Source: an uncultured Flavobacteriales bacterium
GTDB taxonomy: Bacteria > Bacteroidota > Bacteroidia > Flavobacteriales > Flavobacteriaceae
Direction of reading: 5' to 3'
NCBI GenBank assembly: GCA_913058295.1
Contig: CAJXRD010000008.1
Span: forward strand, 19,306 to 83,305
DNA length: 64,000 nt
Shown here: piece after piece, positions 42,669 through 55,046 of the stretch
Position numbering within the stretch: the first letter of the stretch is position 1
How the letters are laid out: every line of letters starts with the position of its first letter
Notes under the pieces: model-generated
The model's input: only the letters and a program-made list of their open reading frames with translations
The model's database searches: none
Told to the model about the DNA's origin: nothing
Position numbers and translations under genes: made by a program

Positions 42669-42727
42669 AGTTTTTTTCGAAACTAATCATTATTATTGAA
42701 TTTATGGCGAAACACCAAAACAGAATT

Positions 42728-42784
42728 TTTCGGAAATAAAAAATCCATCAGCCTTGGGCTGATGGATTTTCCGCTTGATGTGGA
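42728..42784. repeat. tRNA-flank-like repeat copy 1 (terminator hairpin + GCTTGATGTGG)
   Basis: TCCATCAGCC-TTGG-GCTGATGGA followed by TTTTCCGCTTGATGTGG; near-identical to 42899-42957. Confidence 0.85.
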
Positions 42785-42823
42785 CTACAAGATTACTTCC
42801 AGTGATCCAGAACAAACCCAATG

Positions 42824-42870
42824 CTGCAAATAGAAAATCACATCGCTAAGCGATCTATTTTTTTATTTCC
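42824..42870. repeat. hairpin unit (ATCGC-TAA-GCGAT inner stem)
   Basis: CTGCAAATAGAAAATCACATCGCTAAGCGATCTATTTTTTTATTTCC, related to three units at 54.7-55.0 kb. Confidence 0.6.
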
Positions 42871-42898
42871 TTCAAATTTTCAAAATGTGATTTTGAAA

Positions 42899-42957
42899 TC
42901 TTCGGAAATAAAAAAAATCTATCAGCCTTGGGCTGATGGATTTTCCGCTTGATGTGG
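42899..42957. repeat. tRNA-flank-like repeat copy 2
   Basis: Same terminator and GCTTGATGTGG segment as copy 1. Confidence 0.85.
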
Positions 42958-42970
42958 GTCATACTGGATT
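42951..42970 (+). repeat. candidate attL: direct copy of tRNA-Val(GAC) 3' end
   Basis: GATGTGGGTCATACTGGATT, identical to 54578-54597; 16 nt lie within the tRNA. Confidence 0.75.
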
Positions 42971-43212
42971 ACTTAAAAACACCTAATCACTCCATTATAA
43001 ATTACTATACGTTTATTTTCAATATATTAAAAATATACTATTTTTAGACAAACCCAAAAAATGTGCACAATTTTAAAATGATATAATACAGGAATAGCTG
43101 TATTTTTTTTGCAATAGCAATTTATTGAAATCCTTTTGACGTATTAAACAAAAAATAGAAAACCAAGAGTTAAGTTAAACTTTCAATTATATTTGAATCT
43201 ATAATATAATTT

Positions 43213-44139
43213 ATGCCTAGATTTTTTAAATATGTTTCTCCTATCATTTTCACCTTTATTATTTCGGGGGTGAATAGTTCACTTTTAGCGCAAGAATTAG
43301 AACCTCGGTTATTAACAAATATACCTGTAAAATCAAATATACTAGCAGTCGGTTATGGATATGCTTGGGGAGATATGTTACTAGATCCTGCTATAACAAT
43401 TGAAAATTTTAATGCTAAGATAAATTCATTTATGGGGGCATATGTCCGTTCCATCAAACTATTTGGAATGTCTGGGAAGGTAGATGTTGTAGTTCCTTTT
43501 AGTATAGCAGATTGGTCTGGAACTTATAATGGAAATTATGAAGAAGCATCTCAAACAGGGTTTGGTGATCTAAGAATGAGATTATCAGTTAATTTTTTAG
43601 GAGCACCGCCTATTTCATTAACAGAAATTAAAGATTACAAACCAAAAAGTATTATGGGGTTCTCTCTTCAAGTAATTGCACCCACGGGAGCTTATGATTC
43701 TTCAATATTACCTAATTTAGGGGCTAATCGTTGGGCATTTAAAACACAACTTGGTTTTGCTCAACATTTTAATAAAGATTGGATTATGGAATTGTATTTG
43801 AGCTCTTGGTTTTTTACTCCAAATAATAATTATTTAAATGGAAAGGTGTTAAAACAATCTCCTTTTTTAGGAATTAAGGGACATATAATAAAAACCTTTA
43901 AGAATAGGATGTGGGCTACTATTGACGCGGGTTATGGGTATGGAGCTGAGCCAAAGGTAGATAGTGTTAAAAAAGATGTAACTATTTCTTCCTATGTAAT
44001 AGGAGCCTCAGCAGCAGTTCCAATTGGAATTAATCATACTTTAAGATTCACTGCTAAATCCAGTTTTCGAATTAAACAAGGCCCAGATTTTGACGGTTTA
44101 TTTATATCATATCAATATTTTTGGAATAAAAACAAATAG
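43213..44139 (+). CDS. outer membrane transporter-like protein (Phenol_MetA_deg-like)
   Basis: NILAVGYGYAWGD..., VPFSIADWSGTY, QTGFGDLRMRLSVNFLGAP. Confidence 0.6.
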   Translation: MPRFFKYVSPIIFTFIISGVNSSLLAQELEPRLLTNIPVKSNILAVGYGYAWGDMLLDPAITIENFNAKINSFMGAYVRSIKLFGMSGKVDVVVPFSIADWSGTYNGNYEEASQTGFGDLRMRLSVNFLGAPPISLTEIKDYKPKSIMGFSLQVIAPTGAYDSSILPNLGANRWAFKTQLGFAQHFNKDWIMELYLSSWFFTPNNNYLNGKVLKQSPFLGIKGHIIKTFKNRMWATIDAGYGYGAEPKVDSVKKDVTISSYVIGASAAVPIGINHTLRFTAKSSFRIKQGPDFDGLFISYQYFWNKNK

Positions 44140-44246
44140 ATTTACGCACATTTGGAATGTTATTTTTAAGTTATAGTGACTTTAAACCAACCTTTTACAA
44201 ATGATAAACTTGAGCTAATTATTATTTTTGTAACATTAAAATTATT

Positions 44247-44417
44247 ATGAAAAACGATTCATTGGACAACTATGAAAGCCAAGAATGGAGATTAAGGTTA
44301 AGGTTTTTGGCTGATATCACCTTTGCTTCTGCAATGACGCTAATGATTTTTAATTTAAGAATACCGAAATTTGGTCATATCACAGACACTAAAAAATTTG
44401 CCCACATATCTCTTTAA
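44247..44417 (+). pseudogene. truncated TMEM175/DUF1211-like N-terminus
   Basis: 56-aa ORF MKNDSLDNYESQEWRLRLRFLADITFASAMTLMIFNLRIPKFGHITDTKKFAHISL*; contains a first-TM-like segment only. Confidence 0.4.
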
Positions 44418-44564
44418 ATAGCAAAAAAGCATGTAGTTCTATTTTTCATCATTTGATGAGTCATGAAAAGTTGGAAAGAAGAAGGTGTTAACTCATATTG
44501 GAATTGAAGGATAAGTACAAAAAATTTAAATATTTTGTATACTTGTATAAATATTAATTTTATT

Positions 44565-45404
44565 ATGAAACACCTAAAAATTGCTTTATTTCTTTTGATT
44601 GGTATGATGACTAATCAATTCTTGTTAGCTCAGGATGATATAATTAAAAACTCAATTTTAACAGATAAGTTTATTATTCATGCTGGTATTTTTAATCCAA
44701 TAAAAAAAGTAAATGTACAAGCAGATGGAAATATTCCTGATGTCTTTGAAGAAGAAGTTGCATTTGATGAGAAATTTGGTTTGAGTGACTTTGAAACCAC
44801 ATTTACACTTAATTTCACTTGGCGTTTTTCGAAAAAATGGCAACTAAAAGCTGAATATTTTGATATAACTAACGTAGGTAATGCTTTATTAACAGATGAT
44901 GTTGAGTGGAATGATCTAGTTTTTCAAGAGGGTAGTTTTGTAAAAGGAGGTTTTGGAATTTCTTTATATAAAATATTTATTGGAAGAATTATCTCTACGG
45001 GAGATAAGCATGAATTAGGTGGTGGCTTGGGAGTACATATATTAGATGTCAATGCTTTTTTAGAAGGCAAAGTTCTATTATCTGATAACCAAATTAATTT
45101 TAAAAAAAGTAAAGTTTCTGTTGTAGCCCCATTACCTAATATTGGTGTTTGGTATATATATGCGCCTACTGAAAAGTTGTCTTTTGATGCAAGTGTTGAT
45201 TGGTTTGGAATAAAAATAGGAGATTTTGGTGGAGGATTGTGGAATGTAAGCCCAGGTATTAATTATCAATTTTTTAAAAATTTTGGTTTAAGTGTACATT
45301 ATAAATTTTATAAAGTAGATGTTGATGTTGATAAAGATAAATGGAATGGTAATTTTAATATGAGTTTTAGTGGGCCAACTGCTACCTTATATGGTAATTT
45401 TTAA
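44565..45404 (+). CDS. outer membrane beta-barrel protein
   Basis: Signal peptide MKHLKIALFLLIGMMTNQFLLAQ; alternating beta-strand pattern. Confidence 0.55.
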   Translation: MKHLKIALFLLIGMMTNQFLLAQDDIIKNSILTDKFIIHAGIFNPIKKVNVQADGNIPDVFEEEVAFDEKFGLSDFETTFTLNFTWRFSKKWQLKAEYFDITNVGNALLTDDVEWNDLVFQEGSFVKGGFGISLYKIFIGRIISTGDKHELGGGLGVHILDVNAFLEGKVLLSDNQINFKKSKVSVVAPLPNIGVWYIYAPTEKLSFDASVDWFGIKIGDFGGGLWNVSPGINYQFFKNFGLSVHYKFYKVDVDVDKDKWNGNFNMSFSGPTATLYGNF

Positions 45405-45703
45405 ATTTATTGCATAAATTGAATATTAAAATTAAGATAGTTTCCTATGATAAAAACAATAAAAAAACCACTAAATTACCGTATAAAATTTATATCTTTT
45501 AATGACAAATAAAAAACTTTTCTAAGTAGATTTCAACCTTCATATGACACATACTAGTGAATACCTTAAACCAATTCTTCGTCGCCTTAAAAAATTAATA
45601 GACTTGAATATTTTAAATATGCTAAAAAAGGAATCAAATTAGCTGAAGATTTATCTTGAAATTGAATCATGTTATTTTTGGTTAAAGATTAGAAATAATT
45701 AGA

Positions 45704-46756
45704 TTATAATCCTAATTTGTCTTCAAACCAATCAAATAATTTTCTCATAGGCTTATTGTCATTAAATCGATAACCTAAATAGATATTAAATGATCCTGAA
45801 TTTCTTTTAAATTCATCTATATCACTATTAGAATAATTGTAATTTTTTAATTTATATGAGGTGCCAAAAAACCATCGATAACTGTTATATCCAATATTCA
45901 ATTCACTTTCTATTGCAAAGGTGAGATTATTAAATAATTCTTTACTTAAATTGTTGTCCCCATATTTATATTGAGAATAATTATAACCTATTCCAGGATG
46001 AACACCTACAGTAGCAAACCATTTTTTATTATAAACAAAAGTATATAGGTACCCCACTTGTGCTATTAAATCAAAACTATTAATTAAATCAATTTCTTCA
46101 ACTTCTGGTACATCTGTAAAATTTGTTTCGGTAACGCTATAATTAAAAATCAATCGCGGTATTAAACTTCCAGCACTTTTTAATTGTCTTTCAGTTTGTG
46201 CATAATGAGCTCTAAAAGAATAGTTTCGATTTACTATAAAATAAGTACTCCCCTCTATCGATTGCAAAACTGTATTTTTTAATTGAATATCTAAATCATC
46301 TCCAGCTGTAGAGGTACTACTAAAAAATCCTTGATAATAATTGTATTTTAGTTCTTGCCTCCATCTATCCGAGAAAAAGAAATTTAAACTCATTGCAAAA
46401 GCTTTGCTATCATTAAGTTCTTGAAGGTCCTGTTTGTTTAATAAAAATTTTGGAGTAAATGCAAAACCGATGGCTATCCATTTATAATCTAATGACAGAC
46501 CCAATTGATATTCTGATGCAGGTCTTATTTCTATTGTTTCTCCAGTAGTTCCATTTTTTAATTCAATTCTTGGTACATCTGAAGTCAACTCACTTCTAAT
46601 AATAATATTTTCAAAATAATTTACACGATATAATGAGTCATAACCTTCTTTCTCTGCATGTAATACTTGCATCTCAAAATCATAATTTCTTATGTTTTGG
46701 GAAAAAGTATTTGTCATAATAAACAAGAAAATAAAGAAAGTACAATTTAGCTTCAT
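45704..46756 (-). CDS. DUF4421-like outer membrane protein
   Basis: Signal peptide, beta-barrel pattern, C-terminal YLGYRFNDNKP. Confidence 0.5.
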   Translation of the reverse strand: MKLNCTFFIFLFIMTNTFSQNIRNYDFEMQVLHAEKEGYDSLYRVNYFENIIIRSELTSDVPRIELKNGTTGETIEIRPASEYQLGLSLDYKWIAIGFAFTPKFLLNKQDLQELNDSKAFAMSLNFFFSDRWRQELKYNYYQGFFSSTSTAGDDLDIQLKNTVLQSIEGSTYFIVNRNYSFRAHYAQTERQLKSAGSLIPRLIFNYSVTETNFTDVPEVEEIDLINSFDLIAQVGYLYTFVYNKKWFATVGVHPGIGYNYSQYKYGDNNLSKELFNNLTFAIESELNIGYNSYRWFFGTSYKLKNYNYSNSDIDEFKRNSGSFNIYLGYRFNDNKPMRKLFDWFEDKLGL

Positions 46757-46933
46757 AAATCGTTTAATATAATTGGAGCAAGTTACTTAAAATTAAATTT
46801 AACATATCAATATTTTGGCTATGTTTCTTCTTTTAAAAATATAGGATGTTTGGTTTATAGTGTAAAATATTAAGATATAAGTGCACAATAAATATTCGAA
46901 ATTGAAATAGTAGAGATACAATAATTTAAAAGG

Positions 46934-47419
46934 ATGAGAAAAACAATTTTCACTATATGTATGGCAACGTTTCTTTTTAGTTGTAATCAAAATAATAAGA
47001 GGATTACAACTTTAGAAAATCAAATAAAAGCTATAGAAAAAGAGTTGAATGATACTTATAAACCAGGATTTGGAATAACAATGAGTAATATTCAATTACA
47101 TCATTCAAAACTTTGGTTTGCAGGATTAAATCAGAACTGGGAATTAGCCGAATTTGAGATTCACGAAATTAAAGAAAGATTTGATGATATTGAAAAATAT
47201 CAAGAAGACAAAAAAGAAACCGAAATGATTACAATGATCAAACCTTTTTTAGACAGTCTTGATAAGACAATTGAAGAAAAAGACATAAATAAATTTAAAA
47301 TTAATTATGGGTCGTTAACTAACACTTGTAATCGTTGTCACAAAGTAAATAATCATGAATTTATAGAAATTAAAATTCCAGATTTTAAATCTATAAGCAA
47401 TCAAATATTTAAGAAATAA
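46934..47419 (+). CDS. lipoprotein with single c-type heme motif
   Basis: Lipobox FLFSCNQN; TNTCNRCHKVNNHEFIEIKIP (CxxCH). Confidence 0.65.
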   Translation: MRKTIFTICMATFLFSCNQNNKRITTLENQIKAIEKELNDTYKPGFGITMSNIQLHHSKLWFAGLNQNWELAEFEIHEIKERFDDIEKYQEDKKETEMITMIKPFLDSLDKTIEEKDINKFKINYGSLTNTCNRCHKVNNHEFIEIKIPDFKSISNQIFKK

Positions 47420-47518
47420 ATAACTTTTCAATATTTGCGAAAATAAACGAAAAGATAGTGCATGAAAATTTGCTACAATTCATATATAAGACCATTGAAA
47501 CAATTAAAATTTTAAAAG

Positions 47519-47935
47519 ATGAGAACATTACTATCACTAACCCTTATTTTGGGAATAACTTTGCTGATATCTTGTAAGCAAGAGCAAAAAAATGAAAGTA
47601 TAAATCCAACTATAATTTATGGTGGAGGAGATATTATAACCATGCAAGGTGATTCGCCAGAATATACAGAAGCTCTTGTTGTTAGGGGTAATGAAATTTT
47701 ATTCGTTGGTTCATTAAAAGACGCAAAATCAAATGCGGATGAAGGTTATAAATATATAGATCTTGAGGGAAATACATTATTGCCAGGATTTATTGATGGT
47801 CATGGCCTAGAGAAAGGAAAATTAGCAGACATGGTTATTTTAAACAAAAACCCTTTAAAGGTCCAAGAAGAGGATATTAAGAAAATTTTAGTCTTAGAAA
47901 CAATAAAGGAAGGAGTTTCTGTTTATAAGAAATAA
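47519..47935 (+). pseudogene. amidohydrolase (YtcJ-like) with large in-frame internal deletion
   Basis: N-terminal TIIYGGGDIITMQG...LPGFIDGHG joined directly to C-terminal LEKGKLADMVILNKNPL...LETIKEGVSVYKK; catalytic core missing. Confidence 0.75.
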
Positions 47936-48090
47936 CTATTTTTACTTAGTATAGTACCTTGCTACAGCCCTTAACCGTTGTAAAAAAAATAGTGCCAAAC
48001 TAATTATTTTTTGCTATTTTCGGTATCTTAAATTTAATAGGTATTCTATTCATTTTAATAGTAAGAATTAAATAATAACACATTTATATT

Positions 48091-50556
48091 ATGAAAACAT
48101 CATATCTAGTTCAAGTAATTTTTGCATCTTTTTTAATTTTAATGGTATCATGTAAATCAGACAACGTGCAAGAAAATTCAAAAAGCACTAAACTTGAGCC
48201 GACGAATATTAAGGAACGAACCATAATTGGTTATTCAAACAAACATACTGTTCGAGGAGGTGAGACCATCGAATTTAAACTTTCTGGTTTTAATGGTGGT
48301 CAAGCGAACGCTCAGCTAGTTCAAATAATAAATGGAGACAGTATTTCCAAATATAGAGAACATTTTAAGGTTGAACCTGTTAGTAGTTCCTTTGATGGAA
48401 ATGTTGACTTAATTGAACAAGAATTACATTTAGGCTCTTACATTAATATTGACAATATTAGCAAGCTAGATGAATTTGATGATTTTACTATTGGAGGTTA
48501 TTTCTATCCTACCTTTTTGCCAAGTGAATATGTTTTTCCAGAAACCATAGATCCTTTTAGTCCACCTTCTGTAGATATTGCTCTATCTCTTGAGAATCAA
48601 ACCTTATTTAGTAGAATGAATGTAGATGAAAAATTAGGTTGGGCATTACAATTAGATAAAGTTGGGCAATTGATATTTGTTCATGGTAATGGAGACCAAA
48701 TTAAAAAATACCCAACAGATATTACAATAAAAACATGGGATTGGAGCTATATTGCCTTAGGAGTAGATTCAAATAGTAAATCTGTAACGGTTCATTTAAT
48801 GGAAACTCCTTGGAGTGCAGGAGATCAATTTGTAGCTCAAAAAACATCTGTTACAATACAGCTCGAGAATGAATTATCTCAAAGTAAAACGCTTCGTATT
48901 GCAGCTTTAAGTGCTGGTGAAATTGAAGAAGGGCGTACTTTTTCAAAACCTATTGATGTTTTTACTGGTAGAATTCAAGATATTAGATTTTTCAATAAAC
49001 AACTCACAGATACCGATCTTGAAGGATTAAAAAATAAGAATCTACCAACAGAATTGCTAAAATCACAAATAAGTTATTGGAATTTCTCTAAAGGTATTGG
49101 TACTGGTAATGTTTTAGACGATGGAAAATTAGGACTACATGGAAAATCCGTTAACGTTCCAGAAAGAGCAGTAAGAGGTGTTTTTTGGGATAAACAATCC
49201 GTAAATTGGCAAGACGATATTGAAGGCTATAATGCTATTCATTTTTTCGCAGACGATTTGGCCGATGCAGAATGGAAAACAAGTTTTTCCTATCAAATTC
49301 CCGAAAGCCTTAAGTCTGGCATCTATGCTGCCAAAATTACTCAGGATGGTTTCGATGAATATATTACCTTTTTTGTTGCAGCTCCAAAAAATAAGCCTAC
49401 AGCTAAAGTTGCGCTTTGGATGTCTGATTTTAATTATTTAGCTTATTCAAACATTAGTATCGGTGTTTATGCTGAGAATAATTATCCAGGACATAGTTGG
49501 AATAAGTCTGATGCAGCATTTTTAGAAAATAATAAACCTTTTGCAACAGGAGGTGTTTATAACAAACACGTAGATGGATCCTATTATTCTTATGCTACAA
49601 GATTAAAACCCGATTTAGGAATGAAACCAAATGGAATATTAGCCTATAATTTTGTGGCAGATACACATATTTCAAGTTATTTGGAAGCTATGAATTATGA
49701 GTACGATATCATTACCGATGAAATTATTCATGAGGAAGGCATAGATTTATTAAGTAAATATCCAGTGGTGATCAGTTCTACACATCCCGAATATCCCTCT
49801 GCAAAAATTTATGATGCTATGCAGGTATATACTAATGATGGTGGACGATTTATGTACATAGGAGCTAATGGTTTCTTTTGGAATACAGATCTTCACCCAA
49901 CCAATAAAAATATTTTTGAAAGTAGAAATTTTGCTGCTTTAGGAGAACGTTATTTAGAAAGTGGCATTAGAGGTGGTCTTACTGTTGAAGTTGGTAAAAT
50001 CCCTTGGTCTGCTTTTGGAGTACACACTAGCGGCATGGTATTTACGGGATCAAGCCCCTACAAAAAAACAAAAGATGCCGAAAATCCAAGAGTAAAATGG
50101 ATGTTTAATGGCACAACTGAAGGTGATACTTTTGGTGAATATGGTATTGATCAAATAAGAGGAGGTGCCGCTGGCTTTGAAGTGGATGCTGCAGATTATA
50201 CAAGAGGAACACCGAGAAATGCATTAATTTTAGCAGAAGGGAATAGTTTTGAAGGTACAGTAGAAGATATTGTTGTTTCGCAGTTACCGCTTTCAATCTT
50301 TTATCACCCTTCAGAGGCAGAATCAATTATCAAGGCAAGTATGGCATTTTTTGAAACACCTAATGGTGGTGCCGTGTTCACAACTGGCTCAATTACGTGG
50401 ATAAGCTCTACATTTGAAAATAATTACCAAAATGATGTTGCAATTATTACAAAGAATATTATTGATCGATTCTTAGACCCGACACCTTTCCCTAAAGTAG
50501 ATACAGAAAGTTTAGAAAATGTAAATCGATTATTAGGAAATCCTGAATATGATTAA
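48091..50556 (+). CDS. N,N-dimethylformamidase large (beta) subunit-like lipoprotein with LamG-like domain
   Basis: Lipobox LMVSCKSDN; DTHISSYLEAMNYEYDIITDE; VVISSTHPEYPSAKIYDAMQVYTNDGGRFMYIGANGFFW. Confidence 0.7.
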   Translation: MKTSYLVQVIFASFLILMVSCKSDNVQENSKSTKLEPTNIKERTIIGYSNKHTVRGGETIEFKLSGFNGGQANAQLVQIINGDSISKYREHFKVEPVSSSFDGNVDLIEQELHLGSYINIDNISKLDEFDDFTIGGYFYPTFLPSEYVFPETIDPFSPPSVDIALSLENQTLFSRMNVDEKLGWALQLDKVGQLIFVHGNGDQIKKYPTDITIKTWDWSYIALGVDSNSKSVTVHLMETPWSAGDQFVAQKTSVTIQLENELSQSKTLRIAALSAGEIEEGRTFSKPIDVFTGRIQDIRFFNKQLTDTDLEGLKNKNLPTELLKSQISYWNFSKGIGTGNVLDDGKLGLHGKSVNVPERAVRGVFWDKQSVNWQDDIEGYNAIHFFADDLADAEWKTSFSYQIPESLKSGIYAAKITQDGFDEYITFFVAAPKNKPTAKVALWMSDFNYLAYSNISIGVYAENNYPGHSWNKSDAAFLENNKPFATGGVYNKHVDGSYYSYATRLKPDLGMKPNGILAYNFVADTHISSYLEAMNYEYDIITDEIIHEEGIDLLSKYPVVISSTHPEYPSAKIYDAMQVYTNDGGRFMYIGANGFFWNTDLHPTNKNIFESRNFAALGERYLESGIRGGLTVEVGKIPWSAFGVHTSGMVFTGSSPYKKTKDAENPRVKWMFNGTTEGDTFGEYGIDQIRGGAAGFEVDAADYTRGTPRNALILAEGNSFEGTVEDIVVSQLPLSIFYHPSEAESIIKASMAFFETPNGGAVFTTGSITWISSTFENNYQNDVAIITKNIIDRFLDPTPFPKVDTESLENVNRLLGNPEYD

Positions 50557-51703
50557 AGTTTTAAAGGCTATAGTTTGTCTTTTAGTATTATTTTCATGGA
50601 ACCTGTCATTTTCACAAGTTTCAGATGATTCTATTGCAGATAATCGCCCAAAAAACGAACATTTCTTCGAAGCATACGTCTACTTAATCAGTCAGGATGC
50701 TTTGCAATCGAAAGATGCATTCAGTGTGGCTAATTCCTTAAATATTATTGGAGATTTTGTGCTTCTTGGAAGGAATAAATCAAATAGTACACATTTGGAT
50801 TATTGGGTCTATACTACAGAACCTTCAAATCCTGAAGAATCTGTCCCTGAATTAGCAAATAATGCAGGTTTACTTTGGAATACCAATGATTTAGGTACCA
50901 ACGTTTTTTTAAGTGGTATTGGAGTATTAGCATTCCGCCAAAATTTATTGAACGACCGATTATTAATAAAAGCAGGGAAATTATTTCCAGGAGTACATTA
51001 TCAATCAAATTATTATGCTCCTAATAATTCTGAAGTACATATGAATAATATGTTATCTGGTGGCCCCACTTCATCGTGGTTTGGATTACTAGGGCTTGGG
51101 CTAATGGCTGAATACACTGATGACTATTGGTTTGGAAAAGCTGGGATTCATGATGCAAGTGCTGTTAAAGAAATAGATTTTGAGAGTTTGTCTGATGGAG
51201 CTTTTATGTACATTTTTGAAGCAGGAATTAAAGCTAATAATTCTCTAGACAGAAGAGTTTCGTTGCTCTATTCTTATGTAGATGACAAACCGGATAAAAG
51301 TCCAGAAAATGCATGGAGTTTGGGGGGTGTTTATGAATTTGGGGAGCAAGGTTTTTGGAGTTTATATGGAAGATATACCTTAAGAGAAGGTGGTCTTGGA
51401 AAAACAGAAGAAGTAAGAATTGAAGATAATAAAGTAATTCATGGAGGTTTTTTAGGAACAACCAAAAAATCCCCTTTTCATTGGAAAAAAGCTGAAATAG
51501 GCTTGGCATGGTTTATTGGAGTACCTACAGATTATCAGGTTTCCATAGGCAGTAATACGCAAACAGGTATTGAAACCTATTTTAGATGGAATTTTAAAAA
51601 ACTTATCCAAGCAGCCTTTGACTTTCAATTAATCCATACTGGAGTGCATTTAGAACCAATTATTGGAGCTAGATTTAAAGTGGGTTGGAATACTTTATTT
51701 TAA
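50549..51703 (+). CDS. OprB-like carbohydrate-selective porin family protein
   Basis: Signal peptide; LLNDRLLIKAGKLFPG, NAWSLGGVYEFGEQGFWSLYGRYTL; overlaps the upstream ORF by 8 bp. Confidence 0.5.
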   Translation: MIKVLKAIVCLLVLFSWNLSFSQVSDDSIADNRPKNEHFFEAYVYLISQDALQSKDAFSVANSLNIIGDFVLLGRNKSNSTHLDYWVYTTEPSNPEESVPELANNAGLLWNTNDLGTNVFLSGIGVLAFRQNLLNDRLLIKAGKLFPGVHYQSNYYAPNNSEVHMNNMLSGGPTSSWFGLLGLGLMAEYTDDYWFGKAGIHDASAVKEIDFESLSDGAFMYIFEAGIKANNSLDRRVSLLYSYVDDKPDKSPENAWSLGGVYEFGEQGFWSLYGRYTLREGGLGKTEEVRIEDNKVIHGGFLGTTKKSPFHWKKAEIGLAWFIGVPTDYQVSIGSNTQTGIETYFRWNFKKLIQAAFDFQLIHTGVHLEPIIGARFKVGWNTLF

Positions 51704-51803
51704 CTATTTCTTAAAATATCACACAAAAATTCACAAATAATTAACCCTTTATTTAAGTGATCATTCCATTTTATTTATATTTGATTAACTAAATCTTGAG
51801 ATT

Positions 51804-53336
51804 ATGAAATTAAACTACCTTATTCTTTTATTAGTATCATGCATCTTTGTTATTTCTGGAAAAGCTCAAAATAATAATAATATAGTTTATAACCCTACTT
51901 TGGGATTGCAGTCTCAAAATAATAGTTTTGGCTTTATAAATAATAAAATTATTGAGGATAATAGCCCAATATCTACTCATGATTTTAAAAATTATTTAAA
52001 ATATAAAAGTTTTGAATCTGAATATAATGACTTAGTTTATTACTCTCAAACAATTGATACACTTGACACTAAAAAGAAATGGCATAAAACAGATACTGGG
52101 GTTTCATTAATAGTAGCAGGTACATTAATAGGTGTAGGAACCTATATTCAAGTAGCAAATGGATCATTTAAATATGATGTTCGTGATGAAATTAATAGGT
52201 ACTTGCCAGAATTTCATGACCCAATAGACGATTATATGCAATACATCCCCTACGCTGCAGTATTTGCTTTGGATTGGGCAGGCATTGAGAGTAAACATAA
52301 AAGTTTAAGAAAGGTTACTACTATAAGTACAGCAATTGCTTTAAATTTAATTATTATTCAAGGTTTAAAATATGGTGTTGCGGAACCAAGGCCAGATGGC
52401 TCTTCCAATAATTCATTCCCATCTGGACACACAGCAACGGCATTTATGGGTGCTCATATTTTTCATAAAGAGTATGGTCATAAAAGCCCTTTTTATAGTA
52501 TTGGAGCATATGTATTAGCATCTATGACAGGAGTTTTTAGGCAATTAAATAATAGACACTGGATATCAGATGTTTTCGTAGGTGCTGGTGTTGGTATTGG
52601 TGTTACTGAACTGGCATACTTTTTAAATGATAAGTGGTGGGACGAAAAAGGTGTTAATGAATATGTCCCTACTGAAAGAATTGTTAATAATGGCAAACCT
52701 TCATTTTTGGGTTTAAAGGTTGGATATGCTAGTTTAATAGACCTTACGGATGACAATGAACCTGGAATTACTTCAAAATCAGGGTTTAAGGTATCTGTAG
52801 AAGGAGCTTACTTTTTTAATAAATACGTTGGTGTAGGTGGTGAAATAGGATTCCAAAGTTTCCCAAATTCTGTTAACGATGATGTTAAACAAGAATTTAT
52901 AGGTTATGGGTATGATATTAAAGCTCAATCTTCAGGGGATAGAATGTATTATGCTGGTGGATATTTTCAGTATCCCTTTGGAAAAAATGCAATCGGTTCC
53001 AGATTATTATTGGGGGCTATTTCAGGACCTAATACTAAGGTTTATATAACAGAAAGAAATACTCCAGAAGATACTCAACCAAATGAATTAATTTATGCAG
53101 AATATGACCCTTCAACATCAATTAGTTGGGCTACAGGTTTTAATTATAGAAGAGTTTTAAATGATAACCTAGCATTGCGATTATTTTTTGATTATAATAT
53201 TGGAGATTCAGAATATAGCGTTAAATATATAGAGTATATAGATAATGGTACACCCGTGTATTCTCCTTCCATTAAAAAAGTTGCAAAATATGATTCCTAT
53301 TCAATTGGTATGAGTGTAGATATTATGCTATGGTAA
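51804..53336 (+). CDS. PAP2 family phosphatase with C-terminal beta-barrel-like region
   Basis: KYGVAEPRPDGSSNNSFPSGHTATAF...NNRHWISDVFVGAGVG; ~220-aa beta-rich C-terminus. Confidence 0.75.
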   Translation: MKLNYLILLLVSCIFVISGKAQNNNNIVYNPTLGLQSQNNSFGFINNKIIEDNSPISTHDFKNYLKYKSFESEYNDLVYYSQTIDTLDTKKKWHKTDTGVSLIVAGTLIGVGTYIQVANGSFKYDVRDEINRYLPEFHDPIDDYMQYIPYAAVFALDWAGIESKHKSLRKVTTISTAIALNLIIIQGLKYGVAEPRPDGSSNNSFPSGHTATAFMGAHIFHKEYGHKSPFYSIGAYVLASMTGVFRQLNNRHWISDVFVGAGVGIGVTELAYFLNDKWWDEKGVNEYVPTERIVNNGKPSFLGLKVGYASLIDLTDDNEPGITSKSGFKVSVEGAYFFNKYVGVGGEIGFQSFPNSVNDDVKQEFIGYGYDIKAQSSGDRMYYAGGYFQYPFGKNAIGSRLLLGAISGPNTKVYITERNTPEDTQPNELIYAEYDPSTSISWATGFNYRRVLNDNLALRLFFDYNIGDSEYSVKYIEYIDNGTPVYSPSIKKVAKYDSYSIGMSVDIMLW

Positions 53337-53486
53337 AAATGTAAATACTCAAACCCTATAAATAATGATTTTAAATGCGATTAACTGGATTTAGATTCGA
53401 GTAAGGAATTACGAAACGATTATCGAACTTTTAGAACATATCGCATCCAGCCCTTCTAATCTCAATAGATAATAATAAATTCCTAA

Positions 53487-54489
53487 ACTACAAAACCATT
53501 ACATCAATTTTATGTTTCTATTACAACTTCATATTTCAAATCAGTAATAAGTAAAAGATACTACAACTATATAAAATTCTTAAAAGACAATGATTTTATT
53601 ACGATTAAAGGTAGAGCACTGGATAATTACGAAAGTGGAACAGGTCTTTTCGGTGATACAAGAATAGTTGAGTCATATAAGGTAGGAGAATATCCAAAAT
53701 CATATAGATTATTAGAGTATCCCACAAAACAAGATAAAGATTATTCATTTAAACTGACTTTCAAATCTAATAATGTAAGTCAGAAAAATGAAAACTTCTT
53801 ATTATCCATTGGTATTACTAACCCCAAAATAACTAGAGACAACTACGGATTTAGGCTCTATAACTGCCTTAGTACTATTTATAAAGAGGTATTACCCACC
53901 AAAGGTGATTTAGTGTATTATGATTTTAAAACAAGTATTCCGTGTCATACAAGGAAAGTAATCATTGATTTTTTAGAAAAACAAGGGTTAAGTAATGAAG
54001 ATCCCTTCTTAGAATTATTTGAAGGAGATTTTTATTTAAATTGGAATATAGTATTAGATCTAAAATTTGAAGGTATTGATAGAGATAAAGTCAAAAAACA
54101 ATTTTCATCAGTAATATTTGGCGAATCTACAGACTACTCACCAAAAACCAAGAGATTAATAAAAGAGAAATTCCCCCTATTTAATAACCTATTAAAAAGA
54201 GGTTTCGGCAGTAAGTCAGTAAGACAGTAAGACAGTAAGACAGTAAGACAGTAAGACAGTAAGACAAGAAACCAAATTTGTACTTGATGAGGTAGTTTCA
54301 AAATTAAATTTAGACAGAATATTTTGCATACATGATGGATTTATCGTTCATAAAGTAGATGAATTTAGTATGGATCAAGAACTCGCTTCAATGAATTTTC
54401 AGGAACAAGGATTTACATTAGTCAAGACAGAGATAGAAAGTAAGAAAATTTGTGGTAGGGAAAGTCCAATAGTTTGTTGCGCACTTTAA
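53487..54489 (+). pseudogene. degraded plasmid/phage-type replicase-like gene, interrupted by an 8-bp tandem repeat
   Basis: Frame open from 53487 to stop 54228-54230 within the repeat; resumes in a different frame 54247-54489 (ETKFVLDEVVSKLNLDRIFCIHDGFIVHKVDEF). No in-frame ATG at the N-terminus. Confidence 0.55.
54209..54264 (+). repeat. 8-bp tandem repeat, 7 units (CAGTAAGT + 6 x CAGTAAGA)
   Basis: Read directly from the sequence. Confidence 0.97.
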
Positions 54490-54544
54490 AAAAATAAAAA
54501 TAAATACTAAATATATATCCACCCTACATATCCACCTTTAACAT

Positions 54545-54577
54545 GAAAGCCTGTATACCTCTTACACACAGGCTTTC
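54545..54577. terminator. terminator downstream of tRNA-Val(GAC)
   Basis: GAAAGCCTGT...ACAGGCTTTC stem. Confidence 0.8.
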
Positions 54578-54597
54578 GATGTGGGTCATACTGGATT
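54578..54597 (+). repeat. candidate attR at tRNA-Val 3' end
   Basis: GATGTGGGTCATACTGGATT, identical to 42951-42970. Confidence 0.75.
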
Positions 54598-54656
54598 CGA
54601 ACCAGTGACTTCTACCCTGTCAAGGTAACACTCTGAACCAACTGAGTTAATGACCC
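54582..54656 (-). tRNA. tRNA-Val (anticodon GAC)
   Basis: GGGTCATTAACTCAGTTGGTTCAGAGTGTTACCTTGACAGGGTAGAAGTCACTGGTTCGAATCCAGTATGACCCA; anticodon loop TTGACAG. Confidence 0.93.
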
Positions 54657-54730
54657 CTTCTTTTCAAAAATACGTTTTTAACGCGAATATCAAGAATAGT
54701 ACTAACTGCGTTGATCACTTCTAACTCACT

Positions 54731-54775
54731 CCTGCAATTACAATCCCTAACAATGCTATCACATTGGAGGGATTA
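54731..54775. repeat. hairpin unit 1 (CAATG-CTATCA-CATTG)
   Basis: CTGCAATTACAATCCCTAACAATGCTATCACATTGGAGGGATT. Confidence 0.6.
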
Positions 54776-54805
54776 CTTATAGTTTTCCCTACAATGAAAC
54801 CACTT

Positions 54806-54857
54806 CTGCAAATACAATCCCATTACAGGCTACGCCTATTTGTGATTTTTTATTTCC
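54806..54857. repeat. hairpin unit 2 (AGGC-TAC-GCCT)
   Basis: CTGCAAATACAATCCCATTACAGGCTACGCCTATTTGTGATTTTTTATTTCC. Confidence 0.6.
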
Positions 54858-54914
54858 AAAACTTATGAAAATAATATTCAAGGATTAACTTCGTTGATCC
54901 CTAAAAGAGCTCTC

Positions 54915-54968
54915 CTGCAATTACAATCCTTATTCCACGCTAAGGCGTGGATGGGATTTTTTATTTTT
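54915..54968. repeat. hairpin unit 3 (CCACGC-TAAG-GCGTGG)
   Basis: CTGCAATTACAATCCTTATTCCACGCTAAGGCGTGGATGGGATTTTTTATTTTT. Confidence 0.65.
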
Positions 54969-55046
54969 AAAACTTATGAAAATTCTTTTCAACGTTTTTA
55001 AAATAAAAAATCCCGATACATTTCTGTATCGGGATTATACTTGATG

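Follow-up and report, generated by a model that had tools for sequence, protein, structure and literature searches.

A frame-breaking octamer array in the remnant of a TV-Pol-like polymerase gene within a tRNA-Val island of a Flavobacteriaceae genome

A short tandem array interrupts a coding region in the window, the 64,000-nucleotide stretch of DNA analysed here. Such an array may be a reversible switch of the gene that carries it or a lesion in that gene. The preliminary description of this locus, made from the sequence alone, left both readings standing. We therefore asked which of them agrees with the reading frames, the relatives of the gene and its surroundings.

The octamer array and its reading frames

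The array is located at 54209–54264 on the plus strand and comprises seven 8-bp units, one CAGTAAGT followed by six CAGTAAGA. The CAGTAAGT unit starts at 54209, the CAGTAAGA units start at 54217, 54225, 54233, 54241, 54249 and 54257, and CA comes after the last of them. This unit-by-unit reading agreed with the composition and position given in the preliminary description. The octamer array was the top-scoring tandem array of the window (TRF score 109; runner-up 65), and chance cannot account for six perfect copies of an 8-mer. Across all 95 contigs of the genome (3.07 Mb), arrays with the core CAGTAAG were limited to this one and a heptamer array at contig C13:2026.

The array is real and breaks the frame within a former polymerase gene. 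The upstream frame is open from 53487 for 247 codons and is stopped by the TAA at 54228–54230, in the third unit. The second frame, at 54247–54489, is open for 80 codons and lies at +1, one base off the upstream frame. The stop and the offset had both been described earlier, and both were found again. A stop-free frame was obtained in 0 of 20,000 shuffles of 53505–54208; together with the open frames, this indicates that the two halves were once genuinely coding.

Unit numbers from 0 to 14 were computed. Only n = 2 keeps the frame without a TAA inside the array; n = 3, 4, 6 and 7 shift the frame, and n = 5 and 8 bring a TAA into it. The earlier arithmetic, in which a five-unit deletion rejoins one frame, therefore holds, and from seven units the open allele can be reached only by losing exactly five. 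Since n = 2 is the sole open state, one-unit slips cannot toggle the gene.

The array is not the only defect. The first part of the gene, at 53505–54230 on the plus strand, is 41% identical to residues 64–302 of the relative P0003 (E 1e-56), carries the Arg, the first palm Asp and the RxxxK motif, and ends at the array TAA. Its open frame begins at 53487 and its homology near 53505, so that the first approximately 63 residues of P0003 are absent. The expected place of these codons (53337–53504, plus strand) is unlike the homologue's N-terminus and has stops in all frames; no similarity to the N-terminus was found in the 168 bp between the stop of the PAP2 gene and 53505. Upstream of the GTG at 53913, residue 143 of the open frame, there is no in-frame ATG, GTG or TTG, and in-frame stops precede the open frame. 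The preliminary description had overlooked the missing start codon and these stops. The C-terminal part, in the +1 frame at 54247–54489 on the plus strand, is 36% identical to P0003 residues 299–358 (E 1e-10) and holds the second palm Asp (IHDGFIV). No ORF of at least 50 aa initiated by ATG, GTG or TTG was found in this piece.

Family of the broken gene and its closest relative

The upstream half alone gave nothing significant against Pfam, NCBIfam, PHROGs, plasmids, phages or PDB, and yielded one weak relative in 395 genomes of the order. The family was recovered stepwise, with the weak relative as a new query and then by profile search. These searches showed a divergent family present in 39 of 400 Flavobacteriaceae genomes. 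Seven columns (R, D, Y, K, E, H, D) were invariant among 34 relatives, and all seven residues are retained in the window gene, divided between its two halves, which indicates that both halves derive from one gene. The Arg before the palm is R123 of the window frame (34/34 relatives), presumably on a beta-hairpin. The palm aspartates are D146 and D278, the latter in an HD motif; each is invariant (34/34), and D278 lies past the array in the other frame. Because the TAA stands in the third unit, any product would stop short of this second catalytic Asp. The fingers motif RxxxK corresponds to R199-xxx-K203, of which the K is found in 34/34 and the R in 28/34 relatives.

Profile comparisons and a structure model did not establish the fold independently. 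In an hhalign comparison with 22 PolA sequences the HD motif was paired with the PolA HDE motif, but at P = 0.075. The best hit of a PDB profile search had E = 0.44, and the AlphaFold model of one relative (L072) had a mean pLDDT of 43, too poor for a fold search. A tyrosine or serine recombinase stands beside the polymerase gene in the relatives at L108, L071, L072, L065 and L070.

TV-Pols are the mobile-element (transposon-virus) branch of superfamily A polymerases (Iyer, Abhiman and Aravind 2008, PMC2579912). They were reported beside lambda-type integrases and resolvases, with Flavobacteriia among the aligned organisms (PMC2579912). The window gene and its family share with them the order Arg (beta-hairpin), Asp (palm), RxxxK (fingers) and second Asp in HD, an extra N-terminal region and, in the relatives, the integrase/resolvase neighbourhoods. 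By motifs and neighbourhood, the window gene resembles a TV-Pol-type A-family polymerase of mobile elements, a likeness drawn from the description in PMC2579912. The label "replicase-like" of the preliminary description fits this family, whose members adjoin integrases and resolvases. The window copy differs from TV-Pols in being truncated and frame-broken and in having no helicase fusion. The A-family polymerase/primase of SCCmec-type elements, as outlined in PMC10061031, likewise has its catalytic core on mobile elements with site-specific recombinases, but the systems outlined there belong to Bacillota and are polymerase-SSB pairs.

An intact TV-Pol-like paralogue of 430 aa was found in the same genome, at 586–1878 of the 2770-bp contig C91 (L103), with small HTH-like ORFs upstream. 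It probably belongs to another mobile element.

The closest relative found was P0003 (L078), an intact protein of 358 aa from another Flavobacteriaceae genome, G1022. Homology to P0003 reaches into the array from each side, and the two alignments overlap only in K-x-VR, residues that are themselves encoded by the octamer. P0003 has no insertion at the site, where it carries 21 residues (FPLFHSLKSKGLGKKMVRVET); two units would yield exactly as many. The 40 additional bases are therefore best read as an expansion inside a short native tract. The proposal that two units had expanded to seven was borne out by this residue count. Growth from two units to seven is well supported; the ancestral two-unit length is set by the short spacing of a single near relative, P0003.

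Most of the family has 24–25 residues at the site versus 17 in P0003, and a five-unit tract would give 25. The ancestral tract may accordingly have been longer, about five unit-lengths, and have been homogenised into repeats instead of expanding from two. We consider this unlikely, given that P0003, much the closest of the relatives, is of the short form and aligns as far as the array and again beyond it. The objection that a two-unit form would be too short next to the 24–25 residues of distant relatives was also considered; it was dropped, as P0003 is equally short.

The island in tRNA-Val(gac)

The polymerase remnant lies in an integrated island at 42971–54577. A 20-bp exact direct repeat bounds it, with 0.01 matches expected in shuffles allowing up to 3 mismatches. 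The attachment-site copy at 54578–54597 (plus strand, GATGTGGGTCATACTGGATT) lies at the 3′-end of tRNA-Val(gac) and matches 42951–42970 (plus strand) exactly; the latter, distal attachment-site copy seems to be a displaced 3′-end of that tRNA gene. The target, tRNA-Val(gac), was annotated by ARAGORN at 54581–54656 on the minus strand. In the congener G007 (L046) the site is empty, and murF, tRNA-Val(gac), tRNA-Val(tac) and folC follow one another without an insertion. The repeat and the empty site identify 42951–54597 (11.6 kb with the repeats) as an island that entered tRNA-Val(gac) at its 3′-end.

The cargo comprises outer-membrane, lipoprotein, DUF4421, DMFA2_C and PAP2 genes according to a Pfam scan, and the polymerase remnant lies alongside it. 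An amidohydrolase gene at 47519–47935 (plus strand) is also a remnant. It matches only profile positions 433–472 of 472 of PF07969; its N-terminal part is joined straight to the last 40 positions of Amidohydro_3, and most of the gene is gone by internal deletion. Pfam recognised no integrase among the scanned ORFs of the island, the best tblastn match covered 26 residues (E 0.025), and no integrase or resolvase adjoining the polymerase gene was found within the island. The island is hence described as the remnant of a tRNA-targeted integrative element. Recurring intergenic repeats with CTGCAATTACAATCC-like units were seen at 54660–55000 and 42714–42950, around the tRNA-Val/folC junction, and a terminator-like hairpin is duplicated to the left of 42951.

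A fuller element occupies the same tRNA in G1022. It extends for approximately 14.6 kb after tRNA-Val(gac) and before folC (L111 10600 to L108 5720), and terminates ahead of folC with a further copy of the tRNA 3′-end. Its genes, named by reading the sequences and not by a family search, are a type I restriction-modification operon, a serine recombinase, the TV-Pol-like gene and a tyrosine integrase. The polymerase gene adjoins the tRNA in the window, whereas it is at the far end of the element in G1022, and its orientation to the tRNA differs too. A rearrangement, or the accretion of more than one element, would have to be supposed for this difference. A tandem unit of about 80 bp was also observed in G1022 near the tRNA-Val/folC junction (L108 5735–6135).

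A probable slippage expansion and the alternatives

The locus is very probably a one-way lesion of a dead gene, produced by slippage expansion within a decaying element remnant, and not a switch. We propose that an integrative element with a TV-Pol-like polymerase gene inserted into the 3′-end of tRNA-Val(gac). The element would then have decayed: its remnant is missing the 5′-end of the polymerase gene and shows no recognisable integrase or resolvase. Two near-identical octamers side by side are a classical substrate of slipped-strand synthesis. Here the pair CAGTAAGT CAGTAAGA, coding for S-K-S-V-R, may have grown to seven units in this way, and the gain of 40 bases would have shifted the frame and set the TAA in the third unit, truncating the protein before the second catalytic Asp. 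The mechanism is presumably slippage, the ancestor was presumably active as a polymerase, and the window gene has presumably lost its function. Either the truncation or the expansion may have come first. What counts against a dead gene is that, outside the 5′-end and the array, approximately 320 codons are left without any stop; the inactivation would have to be recent, or some constraint would persist.

Contingency loci undergo phase variation by slipped-strand mispairing. The array resembles such simple-sequence loci in that the repeat lies in a reading frame and the unit number sets the frame, and the preliminary description had proposed a switch of this kind, with the polymerase ON at two units and OFF at seven. 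The open two-unit length is that of the closest relative, the array has the length and regularity that slippage requires, and the catalytic residues are retained. The window gene nevertheless departs from these loci: it has no start codon and lacks approximately 63 N-terminal residues, so that it is not translatable in any array state. One-unit changes do not alternate between open and closed states, n = 2 alone being open among 0–14, and one-unit slips from seven never activate the gene. A two-unit imperfect tract would offer little substrate for renewed expansion, and with a sole open state the change is effectively one-way. The remnant of a mobile-element polymerase is also not a typical contingency gene. 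The switch is thus very unlikely for a 5′-truncated gene with one open allele, needing a five-unit loss, in a remnant island, and the same features make the one-way inactivating expansion, which the preliminary description gave as its alternative, the better reading.

An assembly error, with fewer units at the true locus, is slightly less improbable than a switch but still quite unlikely. In its favour, the assembly is a draft of 95 contigs, two or more of which start within other short tandem arrays; such arrays did cause the assembler difficulty. This array is only 58 bp long, however, and lies inside an 83-kb contig, and the 5′ truncation stands at any unit number. A split polymerase made of two separately translated pieces would agree with both halves being open and keeping the invariant residues of the family. 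We regard it as extremely unlikely, with a C-terminal piece devoid of any ATG-, GTG- or TTG-initiated ORF of at least 50 aa, an upstream piece that is also startless, and no split relative seen. Finally, it is conceivable, though most unlikely, that the array is one of several actively slipping 7–8-bp arrays of this genome and that contraction in some cells restores an uninterrupted polymerase core, which would be translated from an unrecognised start and act on the island.

With a one-way slippage expansion as the preferred reading, one sequence documents the decay of a tRNA-borne integrative element: its recombination genes are lost, its polymerase gene is truncated at the 5′-end, and a slippage expansion ends the protein short of the second catalytic Asp. 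It is a clear case of mobile-element decay. A frame-changing repeat need not be a switch, and the start codon, the number of open states and the gene context should be checked first.

Other short arrays, perfect heptamers among them, occur on other contigs of this genome. Heptamer arrays in the 802 kb examined, window included, were TTAGGTG (×7.9), AGCCTAC (×15, with one variant unit), GCAGTAA (×7), TACCTAA (×8) and GAGTGAA (×5). Their places are C5:1–55, C13:1–105, C13:2025–2073, C13 about 30871 and C13 about 46622 (L120, L127, L182, L183), and two of them sit at contig ends. Heptamers are the commonest class of bacterial 5–11-nt repeats, ascribed to polymerase slippage (Mrazek et al. 2007, cited in PMC4679880). 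The array in the window shares with the long simple-sequence repeats covered in PMC4679880 a perfect short-unit structure and the attribution to slippage, and the genome has heptamer arrays too; it differs from them in being an octamer and in lying inside former coding sequence. The array fits a general slippage tendency and calls for no selected function. The heptamer arrays of this genome could serve as a small set on which to test slippage in Flavobacteriaceae. One of them, GCAGTAA, has the core of the octamer.
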